Shown here piece by piece: positions 1,487 to 12,868 of a stretch of 13,421 nucleotides of DNA. Both the position numbers and the translations under genes were made by a program. This DNA comes from Prevotellaceae bacterium (lineage in GTDB: Bacteria > Bacteroidota > Bacteroidia > Bacteroidales > Bacteroidaceae). The notes beneath the pieces were generated by a model. That model saw only the letters and a list, made by a program, of their open reading frames with translations, did no database searches and had not been told where the DNA came from. Where the stretch lies: NCBI GenBank assembly GCA_003150315.1, contig QAML01000080.1, forward strand, positions 1 to 13,421, read 5' to 3'. Each line of letters starts with the position of its first letter. Position 1 is the stretch's first letter.

Positions 1487-2347
1487 TTAATTTGTCTGGC
1501 TATTTTCTATTTCTTTAAGCGTGCGTCCATCTTTAGTTTTCCATGTTTGAGGACCGCTAACACTATAACCAAGCACAAAATCTGCTGCAGCTGATGAGCT
1601 TGAAAAAAGAATATCCTCAGTCGTGGTAAATTCTTTAACCTTTCCAGATTCAAATATCTTCTGACGAAGTTTCTGCATCCCAGCACTTAATGACTTAGTT
1701 GAAGTTTTCTCGTTAACTGAAGCACCTTCAAAAACTACAAATCCTTCTGTTGTCACTTTTCCTGATGCGCTTGCAGAACCTGTTGATAAAAACAGTACTT
1801 CATCATCAGCATTTGCCGAAGGAGATTCTGCCTGAGCAAAAGGTTCCAGAACTTTATACCCTAGAGCATTTATAAGAACTTTAACGTTATCTACGAATTC
1901 CTCCATGACCGCAATCTGAGATTCTTTCATAACTGTATTGCGATATGTATTCTTTGTTAATACTAAATATCTCTTACTGCTTCTGGCAATTTCTACGAAG
2001 CGATTTTCAAGATATCTAATTAGAGCTTTATTCAAGTCTCTTCCTACAAAGATAACCGCTGTACTCCAATAATACTTTTCTTTTTCTGACTGGTAGTCGC
2101 GTAAATGCTGCACCAGTCTTTCTTTAACATTTTCAGCTTCACCAATATAAACAGAGTCGGCGCCATCGTCTTCCTTGCAAAACAAGAAATATACTCCGGC
2201 CTGTGTTATATCATCACGATTACAAGAGGCAACCTCTATACGAGGAATTTTTATTGCCTTTCCATTCCAGTTTGATAATTCAGCTGTGATGAGGCTATCT
2301 GCTGTTCCATTTACTAAGAATAATTCTATAGATTTTCCGTATGCCAT
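1487..2347 (-). CDS. GIY-YIG nuclease with C-terminal DUF4357 domain
   Basis: A 286-residue protein and the last gene of the operon. Residues about 47-125 form a GIY-YIG nuclease domain: GVY at 51-53, VYIGE at 66-70, the usual catalytic Arg in VKERL at Arg77, and the metal-binding Glu in RYLENRF at Glu114. All key positions are present, so it is probably an active endonuclease or nickase. The middle (about 165-240) is rich in Ser, Ala and Thr and looks like a flexible linker. The end, with SSSSAAADFVLGYSVSG followed by W-x6-GRTLKE, matches DUF4357, a domain often found on GIY-YIG proteins and restriction-linked genes. The ATG has AGGAGG five bases upstream, 20 nt after the Res stop. Its placement suggests an accessory nuclease of the restriction system. 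It has no membrane segment. The role is inferred. Confidence 0.85.
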   Translation of the reverse strand: MAYGKSIELFLVNGTADSLITAELSNWNGKAIKIPRIEVASCNRDDITQAGVYFLFCKEDDGADSVYIGEAENVKERLVQHLRDYQSEKEKYYWSTAVIFVGRDLNKALIRYLENRFVEIARSSKRYLVLTKNTYRNTVMKESQIAVMEEFVDNVKVLINALGYKVLEPFAQAESPSANADDEVLFLSTGSASASGKVTTEGFVVFEGASVNEKTSTKSLSAGMQKLRQKIFESGKVKEFTTTEDILFSSSSAAADFVLGYSVSGPQTWKTKDGRTLKEIENSQTN

Positions 2348-2367
2348 AGTTGCCTCCTGCGTAGTTC

Positions 2368-5300
2368 TTATTTAGTCACCATATCAAGAAGTGTCTTATA
2401 GCTGTCAACAACATCGTAAACTACGCTACCATTGCTGATGGCTTTAAAGTGTTCTCTTGCACAGTGAATCTTTGATTCTTCGATTAACCGAAGCTGCATT
2501 GAATTCATTGAACCTTTTGTTTCTGCAACAAAGTAAATATGCTTAACGGTTCCTTCATAGAATGCGATTGCCCAGTCTGGATTATAGTGTCCAACCGGAG
2601 TTGAAATATAGAATCCATCTGGTAACTTAACGTATACTGCTACGTTTGTATTTGTATCCAGTTCAGTTGCAAATGCCTGCTCATTAGATGAATCATAAAC
2701 GATATGGTCATACAGATGCTTCTTAGCCTTCATCGCATTTACACCTAAGCGACCTTTAATTGTCGGGGCAGTAAATACATCCGTACCATACTTTTCATCC
2801 ATAACATCGTAAGTGATGTGCTCGATGATGGCAGTTGCTTTTTCATCATTGATAAGGGCTGCTGCCTTGATGATGAATTCTTCTGGATTGTTCTTAAACT
2901 GATTGAATGTTGCTGGCTGGATTCCCTGAAGAATCTGAATAACCGCTTTTCTTGTAATCCCAGTTTCATCAACAAGCTTTCCAATCAAATCATATTTAAC
3001 ATTAGAACTTGCAGCAACTACATTACCGTAGCTTGCAGATTCTTCCTTAACAAAAGATGCTCCACTTACAAGTTCTTCTTTAGATTTAATCTGTTCCATA
3101 GCTCCGGTTTCAACCTTGAAGTAAATCTTGGAAACACGAAGCTTTCTATCCAACGAGTCGATAGATTTTCTTACCAACTCATCAGTATCAAAATCTACGA
3201 CATATACAGACTTAGAATTAATCTTTGCCCATAAAGCCTTGAACTCAGGCATAGCAAGTTTGCTTTCATCAACCTCAAGTTCAACATTGTTACTACGAGC
3301 GTTTTCAGGCTGCATAGCTCTGCTATCATAAATGGAATCGATAATTTCAATTACTGATGAAGCAGAATCTGCTACTTCTTCAGCAACCTTTAATTCACCA
3401 TTTGCCTTATCTTCATAGTATTTATCAGTAAGAACGCCCTTCTTATCAATATAACCATTAACAATAAGGTCAAAGTGGATTGCTCTACCTGTATCTCCAT
3501 CAATAACCTGCTCATTGCCTTTATCGTCTTTGATGACTTTACCAATAAACAATTCTGCAGTAACTGCCTTTGGTCTGTCAGCAACCGCTTCTGCGATTTC
3601 ATTCTGGAGACCTTTAGCAAAACTATCATAGCTTTCGCTGGCGATTACAGTAAGCACATTTACGTTATGAACATCATTACCAAGTACATTTGTATCCATA
3701 CGCTCACCGTCCTGATTTACACAAAGACGGAGACCACGTCCTACTTCCTGACGCTTACGAACATCACTGCTACTCTGCTTCAAAGTACAAATCTGGAAGA
3801 CGTTAGGGTTATCCCATCCTTCACGAAGTGCAGAGTGTGAGAAGATAAATCGTACAGGTGACTTCTTCGGATTTCTATCAAGAAGAAGCTCTTTATTTTT
3901 CATAATAAGGTCGTATGCATCAACGTCATCCGTCGTTGTTTCTTTACGAGCAACCTTACTATCAATCATTTTTCCTTTTTTATCGATAGAGAAATATCCT
4001 GCATGTGTCTTATCCGCAGAAATTGCAGAAAGGTACTTCATGTAGTCATCTTCGCCCATACCAATCTGAAGGTTGCTGATAACATCCTTATATTCTTCTT
4101 CGAACATATCAGCATAACTTCCGTTCATCGGCTGACCAGCTGCATCGTACTGTTTGTATTTAGCAACCTCATCAATGAAGAATAACGAAAGAACTTTGAT
4201 GCCCTTATAGAACAATTCTCGTTCTCTCTGAATATGAGAAAGGATTGTTTCTCTAATCTGAATGCGGCGAAGTTGGTCTTCTGATACCTTACCAATTACA
4301 TCACCTGCATAAAGCTTAATGCCGTTGATAAATTCAACAGAGTCGTCACGTCCATCAATTCTGGAAACAACAAATCCCTGCTTGTACTCTTCCATCTGGC
4401 CCGAATTATCATAAAGGTTATAGCCTTCAGAAACAGTACGAGTAATCTTCCTGATGCCGGTTGCACCTTTCATATCAAACTGAATGGTTGCTGTAGGTGC
4501 AGCCTTCGAAAGATTGATGTTTTCCAAGTAGATATAGCTTTCAGTCGCAGTACTACCTGATTCTGTGATACCTTTAACTGCAATCTTCTTAACAAGACGC
4601 TTATTGTAGGCTTCCATAGCATCCAAGCGGTAAATCATATTGTATATACTATCTGACTTGTGAGTTGCTGAATAACGAAGAGTCATCAAAGGATTAAACT
4701 GCTTTAAGTTTTCCTTAGTCTGTTTACCTTCTACAGACTGTGGCTCATCGATAATCATGATAGGATTTGTTTTTGCAATAATATCAATTGGACGACGAGA
4801 ACGGAATTCATCCAACTTCATATAAATACGTCTTGCATCTTTTCCTCTAGCATTGAACGCCTGAGAATTGATAATCATAACGTTAATGGAATTATCAGAT
4901 GCGAAGCGGTCAATTTCAGTAAGTTGCGTTGAGTTGTAGATAAAGAAACGAATCTTCTTTCCATACTCTTCAGCGAAATGCTCCTGTGTTACCTGAAATG
5001 ACTTATATACACCCTCACGGATTGCGATACTTGGTACAACAACGATGAACTTACTCCATCCATAAGCACGGTTAAGCTCATACATTGTTTTAATGTATGT
5101 ATATGTCTTACCAACACCGGTTTCCATTTCGATAGTCAGATTAAATCTGCCTTCAAGACTATTTGAAGGCTTAATCTGATTCGCTCTCTGTATTGTATTG
5201 ATATGTTCCAGAATCAATCTATCATTTAATTCCGGAACAATCTTCTGGTTACTCCAACCTGTAAAATCATCATCTTCTGTTAATGTTTGTTGATAATTTC

Positions 5301-5415
5301 CTGAACCTCTATCCATCATATAAGAAGGAGTCAAATAAGGCTGACCAGCAAATACATCAACTACAGCTTTGGCAGCATCTGCTTGGAATTTCTGATGCTT
5401 AAATTGTAGCTTCAT
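2368..5415 (-). CDS. Type III-like restriction endonuclease subunit (Res)
   Basis: A 1015-residue ATP-dependent restriction subunit. The N-terminal half is an SF2 translocase: Walker A METGVGKT at 97-104, motif II DEPQ at 223-226, motif III YSAT at 248-251, motif V REGWDNPN at 531-538 and motif VI QEVGRGLRL at 556-564. The C-terminus carries a PD-(D/E)xK nuclease: NPDWAIAF with Asp947, then FVAETKG with Glu965 and Lys967. All motifs are intact and the length is normal for type III Res proteins (about 900-1050). In classical systems Res acts only in complex with Mod, translocating or sliding from unmodified sites and cutting nearby DNA. The ATG at 5413-5415 has GGAGG six bases upstream, in the 11-nt gap after the Mod stop. 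It is cytoplasmic and DNA-bound. I see no frameshift. Confidence 0.93.
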   Translation of the reverse strand: MKLQFKHQKFQADAAKAVVDVFAGQPYLTPSYMMDRGSGNYQQTLTEDDDFTGWSNQKIVPELNDRLILEHINTIQRANQIKPSNSLEGRFNLTIEMETGVGKTYTYIKTMYELNRAYGWSKFIVVVPSIAIREGVYKSFQVTQEHFAEEYGKKIRFFIYNSTQLTEIDRFASDNSINVMIINSQAFNARGKDARRIYMKLDEFRSRRPIDIIAKTNPIMIIDEPQSVEGKQTKENLKQFNPLMTLRYSATHKSDSIYNMIYRLDAMEAYNKRLVKKIAVKGITESGSTATESYIYLENINLSKAAPTATIQFDMKGATGIRKITRTVSEGYNLYDNSGQMEEYKQGFVVSRIDGRDDSVEFINGIKLYAGDVIGKVSEDQLRRIQIRETILSHIQRERELFYKGIKVLSLFFIDEVAKYKQYDAAGQPMNGSYADMFEEEYKDVISNLQIGMGEDDYMKYLSAISADKTHAGYFSIDKKGKMIDSKVARKETTTDDVDAYDLIMKNKELLLDRNPKKSPVRFIFSHSALREGWDNPNVFQICTLKQSSSDVRKRQEVGRGLRLCVNQDGERMDTNVLGNDVHNVNVLTVIASESYDSFAKGLQNEIAEAVADRPKAVTAELFIGKVIKDDKGNEQVIDGDTGRAIHFDLIVNGYIDKKGVLTDKYYEDKANGELKVAEEVADSASSVIEIIDSIYDSRAMQPENARSNNVELEVDESKLAMPEFKALWAKINSKSVYVVDFDTDELVRKSIDSLDRKLRVSKIYFKVETGAMEQIKSKEELVSGASFVKEESASYGNVVAASSNVKYDLIGKLVDETGITRKAVIQILQGIQPATFNQFKNNPEEFIIKAAALINDEKATAIIEHITYDVMDEKYGTDVFTAPTIKGRLGVNAMKAKKHLYDHIVYDSSNEQAFATELDTNTNVAVYVKLPDGFYISTPVGHYNPDWAIAFYEGTVKHIYFVAETKGSMNSMQLRLIEESKIHCAREHFKAISNGSVVYDVVDSYKTLLDMVTK

Positions 5416-5426
5416 AGCGGACCTCC

Positions 5427-7454
5427 TTAAATAACCTTTACTCTTGTGTCAGGCGCCATCAATTTGAAGATTTCTCCAACATTAATCTTTGAAGGACTGT
5501 TAGCAAAACTACTATCACGGAATACCGCACGTAATGGTTGTTTCTTTGCAATTTCCTTAATAACACTATCTGGTACATTCTCATCAAAACATGCTATTAA
5601 ATCACCATCGTTGTAATTGTGAACAGTACATCCTTCAATATTTTCTGATGAATATGGAAGTGATAAAGGAAGTCCCCATTCAAGTAGGCAACCAAATAAT
5701 AAGTCTAAATCATTACGATCTGATTTAACATTTGATTCAAGCATTGAAAGCATGCCTTGAGAATAATCATTAGGATTATAGTAAACATCGTTCATATTGC
5801 TGTCATCCAATTTGAGGACTCTGAAACCATCATCAAACTTTGCCGTTGGATTATCTTCATGCACCTTCTTTGCAGCGCGTCGTATACGCTCTTTCCCAAT
5901 TTCGCAAATGTTATGCGGAGCATGAAGTCCATCCAAAAGAGCAACAGCTTTTTCTGCAACCTTTCTTGAAGCTCCTGCAGATGCATTCTCCGGCACTATT
6001 TCTTCAGGCAACTGCACTAGAATAAATTTACGATTTTTATTCTGAATCACATTTGCCAAGAAAAGTGCATGAGCAGTCGTGGCAGATCCGGAGAAAAAGT
6101 CCATTACAATATCCCCGTCGTCCGTTCCGCAGAACTCAATAAGACGTTGAATTATTTCTTCATCCTTCGGGTTCTCAAATACTTTGTCTCCCATAAGAGT
6201 AGCGAGACGTTTAGAAGATGCTCTTCCGTCTTTATAAAAAACGCTATATGGCACCCCATACTCATGCTCAGAAAGATATGATTTAATTGTTGGCACAGCA
6301 GTTTCATCGTCTCCAAAGTTTACTTTTCCAGATTCAACCCAAGAAAGCATAGTTTCTCTATTGGTAATCCATCCTCTGGAAGGAATCTTCACCGGCTTAT
6401 TGGTGATGGGATGGAGAATGTCATACTTCGGACCACCTCCACCCGGCCAAGAAATATCAGATGCAAAAAATACACCTCTATCATCTACCTTGTTATAGTG
6501 AGAATGATCCTTGGCAGGATGACCGTCGGGCAGACCTTTGTACCACGCCTTAAGTTCCTTTTCCATAGCTTTATAGTCATCGCCATATTCTCTTTTCAGA
6601 GCTTCGTATTTAGCGTAGATATCTTCCAGTCCTTGTTTTTTCTCACGCCATACGATCTTATTGTCACGAATAAACTGTGCATCTCTAAAATAAGCAAGAA
6701 TGTATTCATGAGATACCGATATGTATTTTGAGTCGTTTTTCCGGCCAGCCGACCAGATCAGCTCCGCTATAAAATTGCTGGCTCCGAAAACCTCATCACA
6801 GATGGACTTTAAAGTGTTTACCTCGTTTTCATCAATACTGATAAAAATCACACCGTCTTCTGTGAGGAAGCTTCTGGCAACAATAAGCCGTGAATAAATC
6901 ATCGAGCACCAATCAGAATGGAAACGTCCGTTAGTGTCAGTGTTCTTAAAAAGTCTGTTGCATTCTTCATCGACCAATCCGCTTTCCTCCATATATTCAG
7001 ACGAACTTCGTGCAAAATCGTCTCTGTATATAAAATCGTTTCCAGTATTGTAAGGCGGATCGATATATATCATCTTACCTTTGCCAAGATAACTTTCCTG
7101 CAACAGCTTAAGAACTTCCAGATTATCACCCTCAATATACAGGTTTTCAGTTTCATTCCAATTCTCACTTTCTTTAGGGCAAGGACGTAAAGTTTTGCGA
7201 ATTGGTTTATTGGCTTCTACAATCGCGGCTTTCTTACCAACCCATGTAAATTCATAAGCTTCATCACCTTCAAGAACATCTCCACTAAGCATCTGCTTCA
7301 AAAGTTCAAAGTTGATTGCTTTTTTGTAAACTTTCTTTTCGGAGGTACTCTTTTCCTCATCTACTGTTTCTGTAATACAATTAGGAAAGAGGGCTCCTAT
7401 TTTTTCAATATTTTGAGCAGTCATGTCGACTGATTCCATTCTCATCTTGTCCAT
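5427..7454 (-). CDS. Type III-like adenine DNA methyltransferase (Mod)
   Basis: A 675-residue site-specific DNA methyltransferase that transfers a methyl group from S-adenosylmethionine, most likely to the N6 of adenine. The catalytic motif IV is DPPYNTG at 132-138, inside MIYIDPPYNTGNDFIYRDDF, and the SAM-binding motif I comes later as DFFSGSATTAHA at 452-463. That order marks the beta class, to which type III Mod subunits belong. Another conserved segment, GVIFISIDENE, is at 201-211. Residues about 235-430 between the motifs probably hold the target recognition domain. In type III systems Mod also supplies sequence recognition to Res, which is the next gene. The ATG directly abuts the DUF4391 stop (TAAATG), and its GGAGG lies inside the end of that gene, pointing to translational coupling. 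The recognition sequence cannot be read from the protein. Confidence 0.93.
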   Translation of the reverse strand: MDKMRMESVDMTAQNIEKIGALFPNCITETVDEEKSTSEKKVYKKAINFELLKQMLSGDVLEGDEAYEFTWVGKKAAIVEANKPIRKTLRPCPKESENWNETENLYIEGDNLEVLKLLQESYLGKGKMIYIDPPYNTGNDFIYRDDFARSSSEYMEESGLVDEECNRLFKNTDTNGRFHSDWCSMIYSRLIVARSFLTEDGVIFISIDENEVNTLKSICDEVFGASNFIAELIWSAGRKNDSKYISVSHEYILAYFRDAQFIRDNKIVWREKKQGLEDIYAKYEALKREYGDDYKAMEKELKAWYKGLPDGHPAKDHSHYNKVDDRGVFFASDISWPGGGGPKYDILHPITNKPVKIPSRGWITNRETMLSWVESGKVNFGDDETAVPTIKSYLSEHEYGVPYSVFYKDGRASSKRLATLMGDKVFENPKDEEIIQRLIEFCGTDDGDIVMDFFSGSATTAHALFLANVIQNKNRKFILVQLPEEIVPENASAGASRKVAEKAVALLDGLHAPHNICEIGKERIRRAAKKVHEDNPTAKFDDGFRVLKLDDSNMNDVYYNPNDYSQGMLSMLESNVKSDRNDLDLLFGCLLEWGLPLSLPYSSENIEGCTVHNYNDGDLIACFDENVPDSVIKEIAKKQPLRAVFRDSSFANSPSKINVGEIFKLMAPDTRVKVI

Positions 7455-8108
7455 TTATAGAACCTCCAGTTCTTTTTTTAGCTTCTTCAGCTCATTGTTC
7501 ATTTGCATCTGTTTATTAAGCTGCTTTTCTTTACGAATTTTCGCTTGCAATGTTGCTATCTGCTTTTGCAATGCCTGCTTCTGTTCGTCACGTGCAACAG
7601 ACTCTTTTAGGCTTTCACCGGAAGTTTCAGTCTTTAACTTGTCTCCGGCTATCTGACGCACAAAGTTTTCATACACGGCATCTACACTCAAGCCTTCCAG
7701 CTTCAATGGCAACTCGTCTTCAGTCAACCATTCTGTATGATAATATCCGTTTACTTTGAAAGCGTTATTACCAGATGCTGCAGCTTCTTTATACCCAATC
7801 CACGCTTGATATTTTCCTTGGTATTCCAGCAAGAACAGAATGTGATATGGGATTTCCTTATCAATCTGCCTAAGCAAGCTATCATCCAGTACCGGACTAT
7901 TCAATCGAACCTCAAATACCTCCAGCTCGGTTACATCGTTTCCGGCAGCAAGGTTCGTTGTAGATGCTGCAATTTTATTTTTCCAATAGATAATTCTGAC
8001 CTGCTCTACAAACACTTTTTTTAATGCAGGTGAAATATCCATGTTTTCATAGAATTTCTGTTTAGGAATTCTTTTATTGAATTCCGTTGTTTTTGGCAAT
8101 CCTATCAT
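7455..8108 (-). CDS. DUF4391 domain protein with coiled-coil tail
   Basis: A 217-residue protein of unknown function. The N-terminal part (IGLPKTTEFNKRIPKQKFYE, then a block with WKNKIAASTTNLA) has the look of DUF4391, a family seen next to type III methyltransferases and large helicases in bacterial defence loci. Residues about 167-217 are charged and heptad-like (Gln, Lys, Glu, Leu rich) and probably form a coiled coil for partner binding. No nuclease, ATPase or DNA-binding motif is visible. I chose the ATG at 8106-8108 rather than the adjacent TTG at 8109-8111; GGGTGA lies about four bases upstream. It begins 15 nt after the helicase stop and ends directly at the Mod start, so it is firmly inside the operon. 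A bridge between helicase and Mod/Res is a reasonable but untested inference. Confidence 0.8.
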   Translation of the reverse strand: MIGLPKTTEFNKRIPKQKFYENMDISPALKKVFVEQVRIIYWKNKIAASTTNLAAGNDVTELEVFEVRLNSPVLDDSLLRQIDKEIPYHILFLLEYQGKYQAWIGYKEAAASGNNAFKVNGYYHTEWLTEDELPLKLEGLSVDAVYENFVRQIAGDKLKTETSGESLKESVARDEQKQALQKQIATLQAKIRKEKQLNKQMQMNNELKKLKKELEVL

Positions 8109-8123
8109 CAAATCACCCGACCT

Positions 8124-11100
8124 TTACTTAACAACCAAGAAACAGATAAGTTCAAAGTCATCTAATCCTGATACAGCAGACATCAATGCAGATGTTCCAC
8201 CTGCAGAGAATAAGCTGTCAATATCACTTTCTTCTTTACAATCAATAATAGAGTTGATTGCTTCACTAAGAAGTTCTGACATTTCGCTCATATCTCTTCC
8301 ATCATCTGTTTCTTCATTGAATCGCTGGCATAATTCCTTAATTGGTTCTTTCTTGCCACGACAAAGAAGTCTGATGTCATCCAGCATTTTCTTTGGATTT
8401 AAATAGTCACAAATGACTTCTCCGTCTGTTCCAATATAAACCATGTAGAACGGATGGATTCTGTTCTGATTATCAATATTTACACTGTTATTTATATTTT
8501 TCAGAATGAATACAACGCCTTCCGGCAACTCGTCAGTTGCAGGAACAACTGCGTGCATTCCTTTTGGCTTCTTATCCAAATCACCATGATTTTTTACATA
8601 CTCAAGAAGATCTAGTCTGAATTCATTCAAGCCTAAATCCATGATGGAAATACCACTGGACATATCTTCGATATCAACTACTTCTTCCTGAAGACGTTTA
8701 AGCTGCTGTTTACGATATTCAAGGTCTCCCTTTTCCTCTGGATTGATAAGGTCATCATCACCAGTAGAAGTCATAACAGAAATCTTCATTCTTGTTTCTA
8801 CTCGACCCTTAAGATTGATATATTCATCCAAATCCATATCAGGCCAGAAGTTTACAAGCTGAATCTGTGAGTTTCTACTGCCGATACGGTCTACTCGACC
8901 AAATCGCTGAATAATACGTACAGGGTTCCAGTGAATATCATAATTCACAAGATAGTCACAGTCCTGAAGGTTCTGACCTTCGGAAATACAGTCTGTAGCA
9001 ATAAGAACATCAATCTCAGTTTTGCTTCCCGGCATTAATACATCTCTGCCTTTTGAAATTGGAGAGAAGCAAGTAAGCACATTATTAAGTGTAGCTCTGA
9101 ATCCCTTGATAGTTGTCTTTCCGTCAATAGAACCTGTGATAACTGCTGTATCCAAGCCATACTTCTTTTTGATATATGTACTAACGTTGTCGTAAAGGTA
9201 CTCTGCAGTATCCGAGAAAGCTGAGAAAATTAATACTTTCTTGTTACCCGGATTGATTGGATTCTCGATTTTTTCAGATACCAATTTCAGTAATTCCTGA
9301 AGCTTACTATCATGTTCCGGAGTAATGTCCGCAACCATCAAAGTCAGCAATTCAAGAACATCTGCATCTGCTTTTAATTCTGTGCGCCATGACTTATAAT
9401 CCATATCCGCCAGCTCGATTTTAACTTTCTTACCGACTGTAAAGTATTCTGTATTACCATCGTCCATGTCAAATTCTGAATCAGATGCTTCATACATATC
9501 AATGTCAGCTGCACCGTACTTTTCAAAATCATCAATAGCCTTGATGGTACTTTCAATCAATGCCTTAATTCTCTTAAGTGTAAGCTGGAATGAGTTAACT
9601 GAACTTTCCAGACGCTTTAAGAGGTTGATGCTCATCAATCTTCTGATACCTTCTTCACGACCAGTCTGTGTAAGGTTGTCTCCCTTATTATGAGTAAAGT
9701 CGATATACTTCTGCACCTTGCTAGGGAAGATGTAGTTGGAAGGTGTATAGATGCACAGTGTTAAAAGCATTAACTGCTCATATATTTCATTGTAATTGAT
9801 AGCTGAATTCAGGTCTGTTAGCTGAGGTCGACGCGAAATAGGCTTCTTTCTCTCAGGGAACTTTCCAATTTCAGCTGTATCATAATATTTCTCGATATGC
9901 TTTCTTGAACGAGCAATCGTAACACTATCGAGCAATTCAAAGAAATCAAAATCAAGTGTTCTAAGCAATGCATCAGTCGTTCTTGCTTCCGGTTCCAACT
10001 TACTCCATGTATTGAAAGCACGCTGAGCCTGCTTGAAGATTTCTTCAATTGTCTTTGTAGTATTCAGCTGCTTATTCATATTTTCAGAATCACCTTCATA
10101 GGCGATAGCAAGCTGATTCTTTAAGTCAACAAATCTATTATTTACCGGAGTTGCAGACAGCATTAAAACTTTTGTTTTTACACCGGCTCTGATGATTTTA
10201 TCCATTAACTTTACATATCGGTTCTCATGAGTATTTGCATGAGTACCTGCACCGTTACGGAAGTTATGAGATTCATCGATTACAACTAGGTCATAATTAC
10301 CCCAGTTTAATCTATCCAAATCAAGGCCATTAGAGAAACCGTGTGCCCTTGATAAATCTGTGTGGAATAAGACATCATAATTAAGTCTATCCGCTGCAAT
10401 CGGATTATTTACATAGTTATCTTTATAAGTATTCCAGTTTTCTGCCAACTTCTTAGGGCAGAGAACAAGAACGCTTTTATTTCTGTTTTCGTAGTATTTC
10501 ACTACTGCAAGTGCAGTGAACGTTTTACCAAGACCTACGCTATCCGCAAGAATGCAACCGTTATAGCGTTCCAGCTTATTTATGATGGCTAATACAGCAT
10601 CTTTCTGGAAGTCATATAAAAGACTCCAAATCTTACTCTGCTTAAATCCTGTAGCTTCATTAGGCAGTTCATCTTCAGAAATATCATCAAGGAATTCACT
10701 GAACACATGATACAAAGTCATGAAATAAATAAACTCGGGTGAATTCTCATTATAGGCAGTTGTAATATTTTCAATTACAACATTTGTAACATCCTGAAGC
10801 TTCTCATGGTCATTCCACAAGGTTTCAAACAACTGCATATAAGAAGCAGAAAAAGGTGCTTCAAAACGATTGACCATGTTGTAGCTGTTATTACCACGCT
10901 CACATCCAATATCAACTGTAGTAAAACCATTCATAGGCATATAAGCTACTTGCTGCTGTTTGTTAGCAACCGTAACAAATCCTCCCATGTTCTCACCGGT
11001 TGTATTAGATTTGAATGTTGCTTTGCGCTTAATCCAGTCAGCACACTCTTTAGCGATTGCCTTCTGGGTCATTTCATTTCTAAGCTTCAATTCAAATTCA

Positions 11101-11360
11101 GTACCATAAAGACTGCTCTCACGATTTAATCTTGGTATATAAAATTCTCTTTTTTGCTTTTCTGCTTTTTCTGTTACGAAGGTTGGAGAAGTGAAAATGA
11201 AGCGACACTCATCCACTGACTCCAGTTGCTTTTTTAATTCTTTGTAGGCATACATGGAAAAGCAAGCTGCAGCAATAGATACCTTGCTGCCCTTACTGAT
11301 AGTAGATGCCATATCGTCACGGACAATTTCCGTAACGTTATCAAATACTTTCACTTCCAT
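8124..11360 (-). CDS. Large SF2 helicase, RapA/SNF2-like, with PLD-like N-terminal region
   Basis: A 1078-residue protein and the first gene of the operon. The motor is SF2 of the SNF2/RapA type: Walker A ADSVGLGKT at 272-280, DESH at 362-365, SATPVNN at 402-408, motif V ATDCISEGQNLQD at 788-800 and motif VI QRFGRVDRIGS at 818-828. The segment of about 410-700 between the two RecA lobes is long. Residues 1-230 resemble the phospholipase D-like domain often fused in front of such helicases (SKGSKVSIAAACFSMYAYKEL, then CRFIFTSPTF), but I find no proper HxKxxxxD motif, so it is probably not catalytic. The C-terminal 200 residues are unassigned. The start is supported by AAGGAG about eight bases upstream of the ATG. 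Likely role: ATP-driven remodelling or translocation on DNA in defence. SNF2-type enzymes also occur in DISARM, but the other DISARM genes are absent here. Confidence 0.88.
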   Translation of the reverse strand: MEVKVFDNVTEIVRDDMASTISKGSKVSIAAACFSMYAYKELKKQLESVDECRFIFTSPTFVTEKAEKQKREFYIPRLNRESSLYGTEFELKLRNEMTQKAIAKECADWIKRKATFKSNTTGENMGGFVTVANKQQQVAYMPMNGFTTVDIGCERGNNSYNMVNRFEAPFSASYMQLFETLWNDHEKLQDVTNVVIENITTAYNENSPEFIYFMTLYHVFSEFLDDISEDELPNEATGFKQSKIWSLLYDFQKDAVLAIINKLERYNGCILADSVGLGKTFTALAVVKYYENRNKSVLVLCPKKLAENWNTYKDNYVNNPIAADRLNYDVLFHTDLSRAHGFSNGLDLDRLNWGNYDLVVIDESHNFRNGAGTHANTHENRYVKLMDKIIRAGVKTKVLMLSATPVNNRFVDLKNQLAIAYEGDSENMNKQLNTTKTIEEIFKQAQRAFNTWSKLEPEARTTDALLRTLDFDFFELLDSVTIARSRKHIEKYYDTAEIGKFPERKKPISRRPQLTDLNSAINYNEIYEQLMLLTLCIYTPSNYIFPSKVQKYIDFTHNKGDNLTQTGREEGIRRLMSINLLKRLESSVNSFQLTLKRIKALIESTIKAIDDFEKYGAADIDMYEASDSEFDMDDGNTEYFTVGKKVKIELADMDYKSWRTELKADADVLELLTLMVADITPEHDSKLQELLKLVSEKIENPINPGNKKVLIFSAFSDTAEYLYDNVSTYIKKKYGLDTAVITGSIDGKTTIKGFRATLNNVLTCFSPISKGRDVLMPGSKTEIDVLIATDCISEGQNLQDCDYLVNYDIHWNPVRIIQRFGRVDRIGSRNSQIQLVNFWPDMDLDEYINLKGRVETRMKISVMTSTGDDDLINPEEKGDLEYRKQQLKRLQEEVVDIEDMSSGISIMDLGLNEFRLDLLEYVKNHGDLDKKPKGMHAVVPATDELPEGVVFILKNINNSVNIDNQNRIHPFYMVYIGTDGEVICDYLNPKKMLDDIRLLCRGKKEPIKELCQRFNEETDDGRDMSEMSELLSEAINSIIDCKEESDIDSLFSAGGTSALMSAVSGLDDFELICFLVVK

Positions 11361-11637: not shown

Positions 11638-12483
11638 TCAGACCTGACTATACTGTTCTCTGAACTGCTTAGGCGTTAAGTAGTTCAGAGAATATGCAGG
11701 CCGTTCTTCATTAAAGAACTTTATGTATTGGGATATTTCATCTTGGATATGTTCATTATCTGTAATATGAAAATCAGTAAATATCTCAGCTTTTATCCAT
11801 CCATTAATGGCTTCCATAGCTGCATTATCTGTTGGCGTACCTGCTCTGGACATCGACCTAATAATATTGTAGGCAGGAAGCAGTTCATTAAATGTTTTTG
11901 ATGCATATACTGATCCTTGATCAGAATGCAGCACTGTTTTGAATTCCGGATGCTGCTTCTTTAACTCAATTACATCGTTTAATCCGCTGATGTATGTCAT
12001 TCTGTCACCACGCTTAGAAGACAATGAATGACTGAGAAGTTCATTATTCCACAAATCCATATAGAGAGTAAGTTCGTAGTAAATCCCCTTCACATAAAAA
12101 GATGTCATGTCGCTGGCAATACACTGCATAGGTCCCGTAATATTCAATTCAGATAAAAGAAGATTGGGATAGACCTTAAATGGAGGCCCCGGCCTTTTGT
12201 ATTTGTAGTGCTTGGATTTACTCTTAATCCCTGCTATTTTGCAACATTTATGTGCATATACATCTGAGACAGTTACTCCCGTATCTAAGCGGATTTTAGC
12301 ATTCAGCCAGCGATACCCATGCGACGGATATCTTTCGTGATATTCCTTAAAAAGTAATATATTATCAATCAAAGCCTTGGTTCTGCCTGCTGGATGGCTA
12401 AGACGTTTTTTCCAATAGTAGAAGCTGCTTCTGCTGATTTCCATACATGCGCATAAGTCCTTTACTGTGAATTCCCCTGACAA
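11638..12483 (-). CDS. IS3-family transposase OrfB (DDE integrase domain)
   Basis: A 281-residue catalytic part of an IS3-family transposase, which cuts and joins DNA ends through a DDE active site in an RNase H-like fold. The first Asp is in ASDMTSFYVKG, the second in VLHSDQGSVYAS, and the Glu in GTPTDNAAMEAINGW. The N-terminus (VKDLCACMEISRSSFYYWKK) is the usual HTH_21-type region before the rve core, and the C-terminus shows the typical RPAYSLNYLTPKQFRE ending. The listed start is a TTG at 12481-12483 with no ribosome binding site; the frame is open up to 12564, so OrfB is probably made as an OrfA-OrfB fusion by ribosomal frameshifting or from a start further up. Catalytic motifs are intact. 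Confidence 0.85.
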   Translation of the reverse strand: MSGEFTVKDLCACMEISRSSFYYWKKRLSHPAGRTKALIDNILLFKEYHERYPSHGYRWLNAKIRLDTGVTVSDVYAHKCCKIAGIKSKSKHYKYKRPGPPFKVYPNLLLSELNITGPMQCIASDMTSFYVKGIYYELTLYMDLWNNELLSHSLSSKRGDRMTYISGLNDVIELKKQHPEFKTVLHSDQGSVYASKTFNELLPAYNIIRSMSRAGTPTDNAAMEAINGWIKAEIFTDFHITDNEHIQDEISQYIKFFNEERPAYSLNYLTPKQFREQYSQV

Positions 12484-12547: not shown

Positions 12548-12868
12548 TCACCAGATATCCTTTTTTAACCGAGCCTCTCTAATCTTAGACTTCATTAATT
12601 CTTCGATAAGTTCTTCTTTAGACATTGAAGAATAGTCCTCAGAGCTACTCAAAGGTTCTCCGGGTGTTATTGGCGACACAGTAATCTTTTCTTCTTTACG
12701 CCCATAGCTTGAAGTATGTTCTATACCTTGCCATTGCTCATAAAGAATTCTATAACGTCTAGCACTTTCTTCGCTAAGGGCAAAGAGTTTTCCCGCCTTC
12801 AGGTTGGATAAGCCGGATTCGTGTATTTTACGGCCAAGCTCTATGCGTTCTTCTTTACTGTACTTCAT
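12548..12868 (-). CDS. IS3-family OrfA, helix-turn-helix protein, probably shortened
   Basis: A 106-residue protein with an N-terminal helix-turn-helix (KYSKEERIELGRKIHESGLS, then LFALSEESARRYR) that binds the IS ends, and a C-terminal Glu/Lys-rich helix (EELIEELMKSKIREARLKK) for multimerisation. The ATG has GGAGG seven bases upstream. The end is odd: after RLKK, at a run of six A and GG (12559-12566), the frame gives DIW and a stop. In the -1 frame it would read GYLVKGVGADKEY and go on about 22 codons, a tail common in relatives of this IS. This copy may therefore have lost one A, or the A6G run may be a programmed -1 slippage site. OrfB lies in the third frame, which is -1 relative to the extended version. 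Confidence 0.75.
   Translation of the reverse strand: MKYSKEERIELGRKIHESGLSNLKAGKLFALSEESARRYRILYEQWQGIEHTSSYGRKEEKITVSPITPGEPLSSSEDYSSMSKEELIEELMKSKIREARLKKDIW

Follow-up and report, generated by a model that had tools for sequence, protein, structure and literature searches.

Do the five closely packed genes on contig QAML01000080.1 of a Prevotellaceae bacterium (assembly GCA_003150315.1) form a single defence machine? The window, which is the whole stretch of 13,421 nucleotides analysed, carries on its minus strand genes for a SNF2-family helicase, a DUF4391 protein, a DNA methyltransferase (Mod), a restriction subunit (Res) and a GIY-YIG nuclease. Open reading frame (ORF) calls and family matches confirmed the order, and the gaps of 15, 0, 11 and 20 nt with the ATG start of the DUF4391 gene, as given in a preliminary description made from the sequence alone. 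The families and catalytic residues named there were also found; the residues seen are DPPY in Mod, the GKT box and PD...ExK in Res, and GKT and DESH in the helicase. We read the five genes as a four-gene core, helicase-DUF4391-Mod-Res, with the GIY-YIG gene as a passenger. The core is probably a type III-like restriction-modification system in which the SNF2 helicase and the DUF4391 protein act as helper motor and adaptor, the fifth gene being optional.

The type III character is evident from Mod and Res. Type III Mod subunits methylate adenine in a short site and bear the target recognition region, while Res together with Mod, as in EcoP15I, combines ATP-driven translocation with PD-ExK cutting of unmodified DNA; the site is asymmetric and hemimethylated, and cleavage occurs about 25-27 nt away. 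The window Mod (5427-7454, 675 aa, adenine-type, with motifs of the beta-class type) matches EcoP15I Mod (E 1e-75), PADLOC MTase_III (703 bits) and PF01555, and its catalytic DPPY (residues 132-135, 7050-7061) precedes the S-adenosylmethionine motif. Res (2368-5415, 1015 aa), an SF2 translocase with a PD-(D/E)xK nuclease, matches EcoP15I Res (E 2.5e-62), PADLOC REase_III (955 bits), PF04851 and PF19778, and carries PDW...ExK with the nuclease residues D947...E965-x-K967 (2515-2577). In alignments of sequences picked by length and score, DPPY was present in 152/152 Mod relatives and PDW...ExK in 138/138 Res relatives. The window type thus shares both families and their catalytic motifs with EcoP1I and EcoP15I, and differs from them by two more conserved genes upstream, which were found in none of six assessable EcoP1I-like loci, and from EcoP1I by the position of its Res in a separate clade. 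Phage P1 was not among the 11 phage records matching the helicase, and its mod-res record is too short for the upstream side to be seen. Two Mod genes in one operon were observed in L007, L012, L019, L104 and L156; the order in L019 is Mod, a 100-aa Res start, Mod and Res, as if by duplication and exchange of specificity. In L293 and L294 a Res of the window's clade is just ~790-808 aa long and stands with Mod, helicase and DUF4391 both being absent; this may be a form that arose by loss.

The first core gene (8124-11360, 1078 aa) encodes a helicase/translocase with the Pfam domains SNF2-rel_dom and Helicase_C, whose GKT and DESH columns show a conservation of 97% or more across 187 relatives. 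Of its earlier designation as SF2/RapA-like the helicase part stands; to RapA itself the resemblance is weak and at family level (NCBIfam RapA 48.6 bits against a cut-off of 576). The best profile is PADLOC C3a139, named HKD+Snf2 (405 bits), which spans residues 177-1077 and leaves out most of an N-terminal region (residues 1-204, 10749-11360) with a phospholipase-D (PLD) fold in the predicted model. The HxK catalytic motif of PLD (HKD) nucleases is not in the window helicase, and the name HKD is inapt for this helicase branch. Restriction enzymes of the SauUSI and NgoAVII ATP-dependent type share with the window a PLD-fold domain, which in the window is joined to an SF2 motor; they differ in that the window helicase has no PLD motif and a nuclease is on Res.

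The second core gene encodes a DUF4391 protein (PF14335, E 2.5e-59, 201 bits against a cut-off of 29.9), predicted by AlphaFold as an alpha/beta domain with a C-terminal helical hairpin (predicted local distance difference test, pLDDT, 96). An alternative TTG start would give 7455-8111; the next ATG (first base 8108; gene 7455-8108, 217 aa) is the best start; it yields the gaps already described, and P0001, an identical protein in the database, is likewise 217 aa long. DUF4391 matches were present in 23/249 Bacillota, 19/299 Pseudomonadota and 10/198 Bacteroidota species genomes, each sample holding one centre genome picked for carrying the gene and the ten Bacteroidota genomes including one fused copy and one fragment; none was present in 14 control genomes. 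DUF4391 proteins 96% identical to that of the window occur in Faecalitalea, Fusobacterium necrophorum and Firmicutes M10-2, an identity which suggests a recent transfer between phyla.

Evidence that the four genes belong together comes from their neighbourhood in other genomes. Helicase-anchored scans gave 80 genome loci (the best 80 of at least 565 relatives) and 80 viral-contig loci (the best 80 of 81). By profiles built in this analysis, all four genes were found in fixed order on one strand in 147/195 helicase-bearing loci, and only 8 of the other 48 had at least 6 kb left downstream. The 147 loci, which include the window, copies obtained by two routes (e.g. L015 with L254) and disrupted cassettes (L004, L152), merge to 125 at 95% and to 81 at 80% helicase identity. 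As the helicase was the anchor for most loci, the sample is biased. By record title, the helicase-anchored genome loci come from Bacillota, Pseudomonadota, Bacteroidota, Actinomycetota, Synergistaceae, Spirochaetaceae, Fibrobacter and others, and in five distant hosts identity is 54-57% for the helicase versus 36-49% for Mod and 46-50% for Res. Thus helicase, DUF4391, Mod and Res, four of the five genes for which the preliminary description had named such conservation as support, recur in the same order in unrelated genomes.

The seven plasmid cassettes viewed come from the 75 plasmid records in which DUF4391 matched, or from the helicase matches. Plasmids of Citrobacter, Methylotuvimicrobium, Acinetobacter, Leuconostoc and Mycolicibacterium have the order helicase, DUF4391, methyltransferase and DEAD/DEAH protein (Res), a Sphingobium copy is disrupted by insertion sequence (IS) elements, and a plasmid of the archaeon Methanomethylovorans hollandica has the same four-gene order with one gene inserted. 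Starting from DUF4391, 46/59 places had a Res match within ~9 kb on the same contig (23/25 in Bacillota, 15/21 in Pseudomonadota, 8/13 in Bacteroidota), the remaining 13 being on contigs without any listed Res match; distances were compared by hand, and two pieces of one broken Bacillota gene were counted once. In plasmids of Acetobacter (L334, with IS elements nearby) and Desulforapulum (L335), helicase and DUF4391 are accompanied by Mod, after which no Res is annotated.

The helicase and a DUF4391-like region also meet in a second type of locus. Helicase relatives at 38-42% identity occur in L139, L142, L147, L154 and in L311, a locus of a Bacteroidota genome; downstream of each lies a gene for an Eco57I-type methyltransferase/restriction enzyme of 1200-1560 aa, with an SMC-like ATPase next in 3/5 loci. 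Within residues 101-228 all five enzymes have a DUF4391-like region, in each case below the Pfam cut-off (E 2.2e-6, 8.6e-5, 9.7e-5, 0.001 and 0.028). Four Eco57I-type controls adjoining more distant SNF2 helicases, chosen among 25 listed of 166 plasmid records, gave no Pfam DUF4391 match at E 1, and with the profile built here they scored at most 0.6 bits versus 8.6 to 20 for the five enzymes; hhalign aligned DUF4391 with the region over 67 columns (E 3e-5, probability 72%). This region is the main evidence, of a suggestive kind, for DUF4391 as an adaptor between motor and modification enzyme. The enzyme of L142 (3336-8018) has an extra C-terminal DUF3800 domain.

The two types of locus differ in their nucleases. 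The PLD motif was found in 9/9 Eco57I-coupled helicases looked at versus 1/181 helicases accompanied by a DUF4391 gene: in the latter the HxKxY string occurs in four, and the accompanying GSSN in one of these as well (L269), while HxKxY and GSSN are both present in the helicases of L139, L142, L147, L154, L311 and L143 and in four control helicases. That the motif is kept in the Eco57I form and, L269 apart, absent with a DUF4391 gene suggests that the helicase lost its PLD nuclease in systems where cutting falls to Res. We propose tentatively, and with less assurance than the restriction-modification reading itself, that SNF2 helicase and DUF4391 are a portable motor/adaptor module defining a 'helicase-assisted' superfamily across restriction types (type III, and Eco57I with fused DUF4391), in which the nuclease would swap between PLD on the helicase (Eco57I form) and PD-ExK on Res with a motif-less PLD (type III form), the operon being a nest for variable back-up effectors, GIY-YIG included.

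A number of results weigh against a helper motor and adaptor coupled to Mod-Res. The system is known here from its genes, that is from composition, order, motifs, linkage and predicted folds, and the conserved linkage could alternatively stem from joint mobility. The putative adaptor role of DUF4391 rests on weak matches in the five Eco57I-type enzymes, a further scan for the Eco57I-type form brought no new independent case, and the DUF4391 fold had no structural match. Promoter-like sites were not above chance (27 found, 31.6 expected). Some Mod-Res pairs also stand alone. A Res-anchored search found matches in 38/249 Bacillota, 37/299 Pseudomonadota, 8/198 Actinomycetota and 37/198 Bacteroidota genomes, the phylum labels of the genome samples being those of their centre genomes. 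From these, 84 stretches were taken (L205, L240-L305, L310-L326), mainly full-length or nearly full-length Res matches and some fragments, with L311 included for its DUF4391 match. The tally covers 81 stretches with a Res ORF above 750 aa; L205 (a 3.3-kb contig) was left out, and L305 has Res fragments only. The tree was rooted on phage P1 Res, for which 'no helicase' was entered by hand. Where a contig ends too soon for a locus to be judged, the locus was scored as unknown; this concerns eight loci of the window's clade, four and one partial of the sister clade, and three of the remainder. Within the clade of the window's Res (support 0.94) helicase and DUF4391 are kept in 22/27 assessable loci, decayed copies are seen in two (L243, L250), and three have neither gene (L264, L293, L294). 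The sister clade, with support of 0.46 in the tally tree and 0.97 in a de-duplicated tree, holds 14 loci with both genes, 2 partial, 17 with none and 4 unknown, so that 17/32 assessable loci are without the pair; EcoP1I-like Res had neither gene in the six assessable loci, with three more unknown. Mod-Res of this kind can therefore do without the pair. The preliminary description had named Mod-Res alone in close relatives as a finding that would count against a joint system; it is rare in the window's own clade and frequent in the sister clade.

These lone pairs also speak for a single operon that houses two systems independent of each other, an ordinary Mod-Res and a separate SNF2/DUF4391 defence pair, which share mobility and not mechanism. 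To the same side belong the helicases that occur without Mod-Res (L139, L142, L147, L154, L311) and L310 (G872:C110), where the helicase-DUF4391 pair comes after Res, on one strand with it, either in a permuted order or as two tandem cassettes cut by contig ends. However, in the five loci without Mod-Res the helicase precedes another modification enzyme bearing a DUF4391-like region, the pair is missing in just 3/27 Res loci of the window's clade, and the nuclease motif of the helicase is missing where Res is present, L269 excepted. We therefore regard two unconnected systems as unlikely.

In the favoured reading, that of a type III-like system with a helper motor, Mod would mark a short site by adenine methylation and recognise the target, and Res in complex with Mod would translocate on ATP and cut unmodified DNA with its PD-ExK nuclease; both steps are taken from the family (EcoP15I), the motifs being seen in the window. 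The SNF2 helicase, its PLD fold kept and the motif lost, may form with DUF4391 a second ATP-driven motor on double-stranded DNA, DUF4391 possibly tethering the helicase to Mod. Such a motor would likely strip proteins or drive long-range movement, and might so let Mod-Res engage or cleave phage DNA that is protected, roadblocked or replicating. The GIY-YIG nuclease would be one of many swappable effectors in or behind the operon, perhaps a back-up if the core is inhibited.

SNF2 motors appear to have entered this Res branch on more than one occasion, as judged from DrmD-like SNF2 helicases in 6/17 sister-clade loci without helicase and DUF4391, none being seen in the other eleven. In four of them (L284, L299, L319, L320) the DrmD-like helicase precedes Mod-Res and scores ~700 bits to PADLOC DrmD; in L274 (split) and L303 (weaker) it was found by the profile built here only. 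Such helicases would fit a defence of the BREX or DISARM kind, non-cleaving or blocking replication, with the SNF2 motor as effector and Res in an auxiliary role. Against it, PD-ExK is present in all 138 aligned Res, and among the PADLOC matches listed (25 of 26 families for Mod, 25 of 44 for the helicase) the window proteins match such systems weakly and in a helicase-wide manner (DrmD 129, BrxHI 86 and DrmA 81 bits), which makes a non-cleaving defence quite improbable.

The same matches bear on assignment to catalogued classes. DISARM class 1 is composed of DrmD, DrmMI, DrmA, DrmB and DrmC. The window does not fit it: DrmD reaches 154 bits with NCBIfam (cut-off 610), the DrmA match is to the helicase, and no DrmB, DrmC or DrmMI is among the matches listed for the five window proteins, the flanking genes lying outside the PADLOC scan. 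Hma consists of the HmaA helicase, the HmaB methylase and the HmaC ATPase, and shares with the window an SNF2-type helicase and a methyltransferase. It had been suggested as a possible match; HmaA reaches 86 bits over part of the helicase, versus 405 for C3a139, and neither HmaB nor HmaC is among the matches listed, so the suggestion is not borne out. DUF4391 has no match to any PADLOC 2.0.0 model at E 0.001, and to that extent, for PADLOC, the expectation that no existing model covers all the genes held. Combinations of an SNF2-type motor and a methyltransferase are met repeatedly among DISARM and BREX-related systems (PMC12839542, PMC12458937). The 'Type-2 BR' BREX-related systems are described, in the sections available, as an HKD and Swi2/Snf2 helicase with an N6 methyltransferase and effectors embedded in the core loci (PMC12839542); this resembles the window locus and its relatives, and differs in that no Res subunit was seen and DUF4391 has no occurrence in the main text.

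The GIY-YIG gene (1487-2347, 286 aa, minus strand; PF01541 and DUF4357, PF14267) matches the PADLOC candidate PDC-S14 (E 1.7e-98, 327 bits), and differs from it in standing behind the four-gene core. It had been proposed that the helicase, the DUF4391 protein and this nuclease join Mod and Res in one machine of five components. The proposal was supported for helicase and DUF4391 and not for GIY-YIG, which was found in 9/214 loci scanned, the window included, by a profile built from few sequences that distant relatives may escape. Its position directly behind Res in several lineages speaks for the proposal; in L075, L104 and L107 a 4-nt overlap with the Res stop points to co-translation with Res. 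In 249 Bacillota genomes DUF4357 was above cut-off in 15 (16 genes), and two of the 16 genes lie within ~5 kb of the cassette. On the other side, 114 loci contain helicase, DUF4391 and Res and extend 1.5 kb past Res; in 59 of them a gene of at least 90 aa lies on the same strand within 150 nt of Res, and only six of these genes are of the window's GIY-YIG type. Of 42 plasmid records with a relative three were viewed: two relatives are encoded inside type I systems, between hsdS and hsdR (L338 8001-8948; L339 5968-6891), and the third adjoins another methyltransferase/helicase set on the other strand. A five-component machine is hence very improbable, and GIY-YIG looks like an interchangeable accessory outside the core, given its rarity, the other genes in its slot and the relatives inside type I systems. 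An additional 22-bit GIY-YIG match lies on the other strand in L312.

Insertions are found within the core as well. ORFs of at least 70 aa lie between core genes in 81/147 loci (168 ORFs, 147 on the operon strand). The helicase-DUF4391 slot holds 18 of these ORFs, the DUF4391-Mod slot 73 and the Mod-Res slot 77. Twelve of the 168 are copies or pieces of core families (8 Mod, 3 helicase, 1 Res), the eight Mod-like ORFs being in the Mod-Res slot, and some are transposases or possibly spurious. A same-strand, non-core insert of at least 90 aa is present in 74/147 loci. Matches listed for 87 representative inserts include GmrSD, Fic, AAA_21/SMC-like, Schlafen AlbA_2 and AAA_13, and also Abi_C, RhuM, YhcG, GajA/GajB and transposases. 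As embedded effectors are described for BREX core loci in the sections available of PMC12839542, the idea is already known, and the window extends it to a type III-like operon.

Within the open-licence literature, as far as its texts were accessible, no description of the helicase-DUF4391-Mod-Res set was found, and none is given in the portions consulted of PMC12707154, PMC3702460, PMC12458937, PMC10853773, PMC6459918 and PMC12839542; DUF4391 was found in one open-licence paper, as a row of a gene-enrichment table (TM7x hosts) with no function. As DefenseFinder, REBASE and the closed literature lie outside this search, novelty is not established. The system is common, and its extra motor and DUF4391 fall outside the two-gene picture of type III, so it may be misread in annotation, which could account for inactive or partial clones. 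The proposed exchange of nucleases between helicase and Res can be put to the test as an explanation of how new defence systems arise from recombined helicases and restriction enzymes.

A small helix-turn-helix gene (~61-66 aa) lies directly before the helicase in four plasmids (L002, L006, L335, L336). None was seen in the window, where the ORF of an IS3-type transposase (11638-12483) ends 277 nt upstream of the helicase and is itself preceded by an ORF with no Pfam match (12548-12868). On the other flank, an alpha/beta hydrolase gene occupies positions 109-1029.

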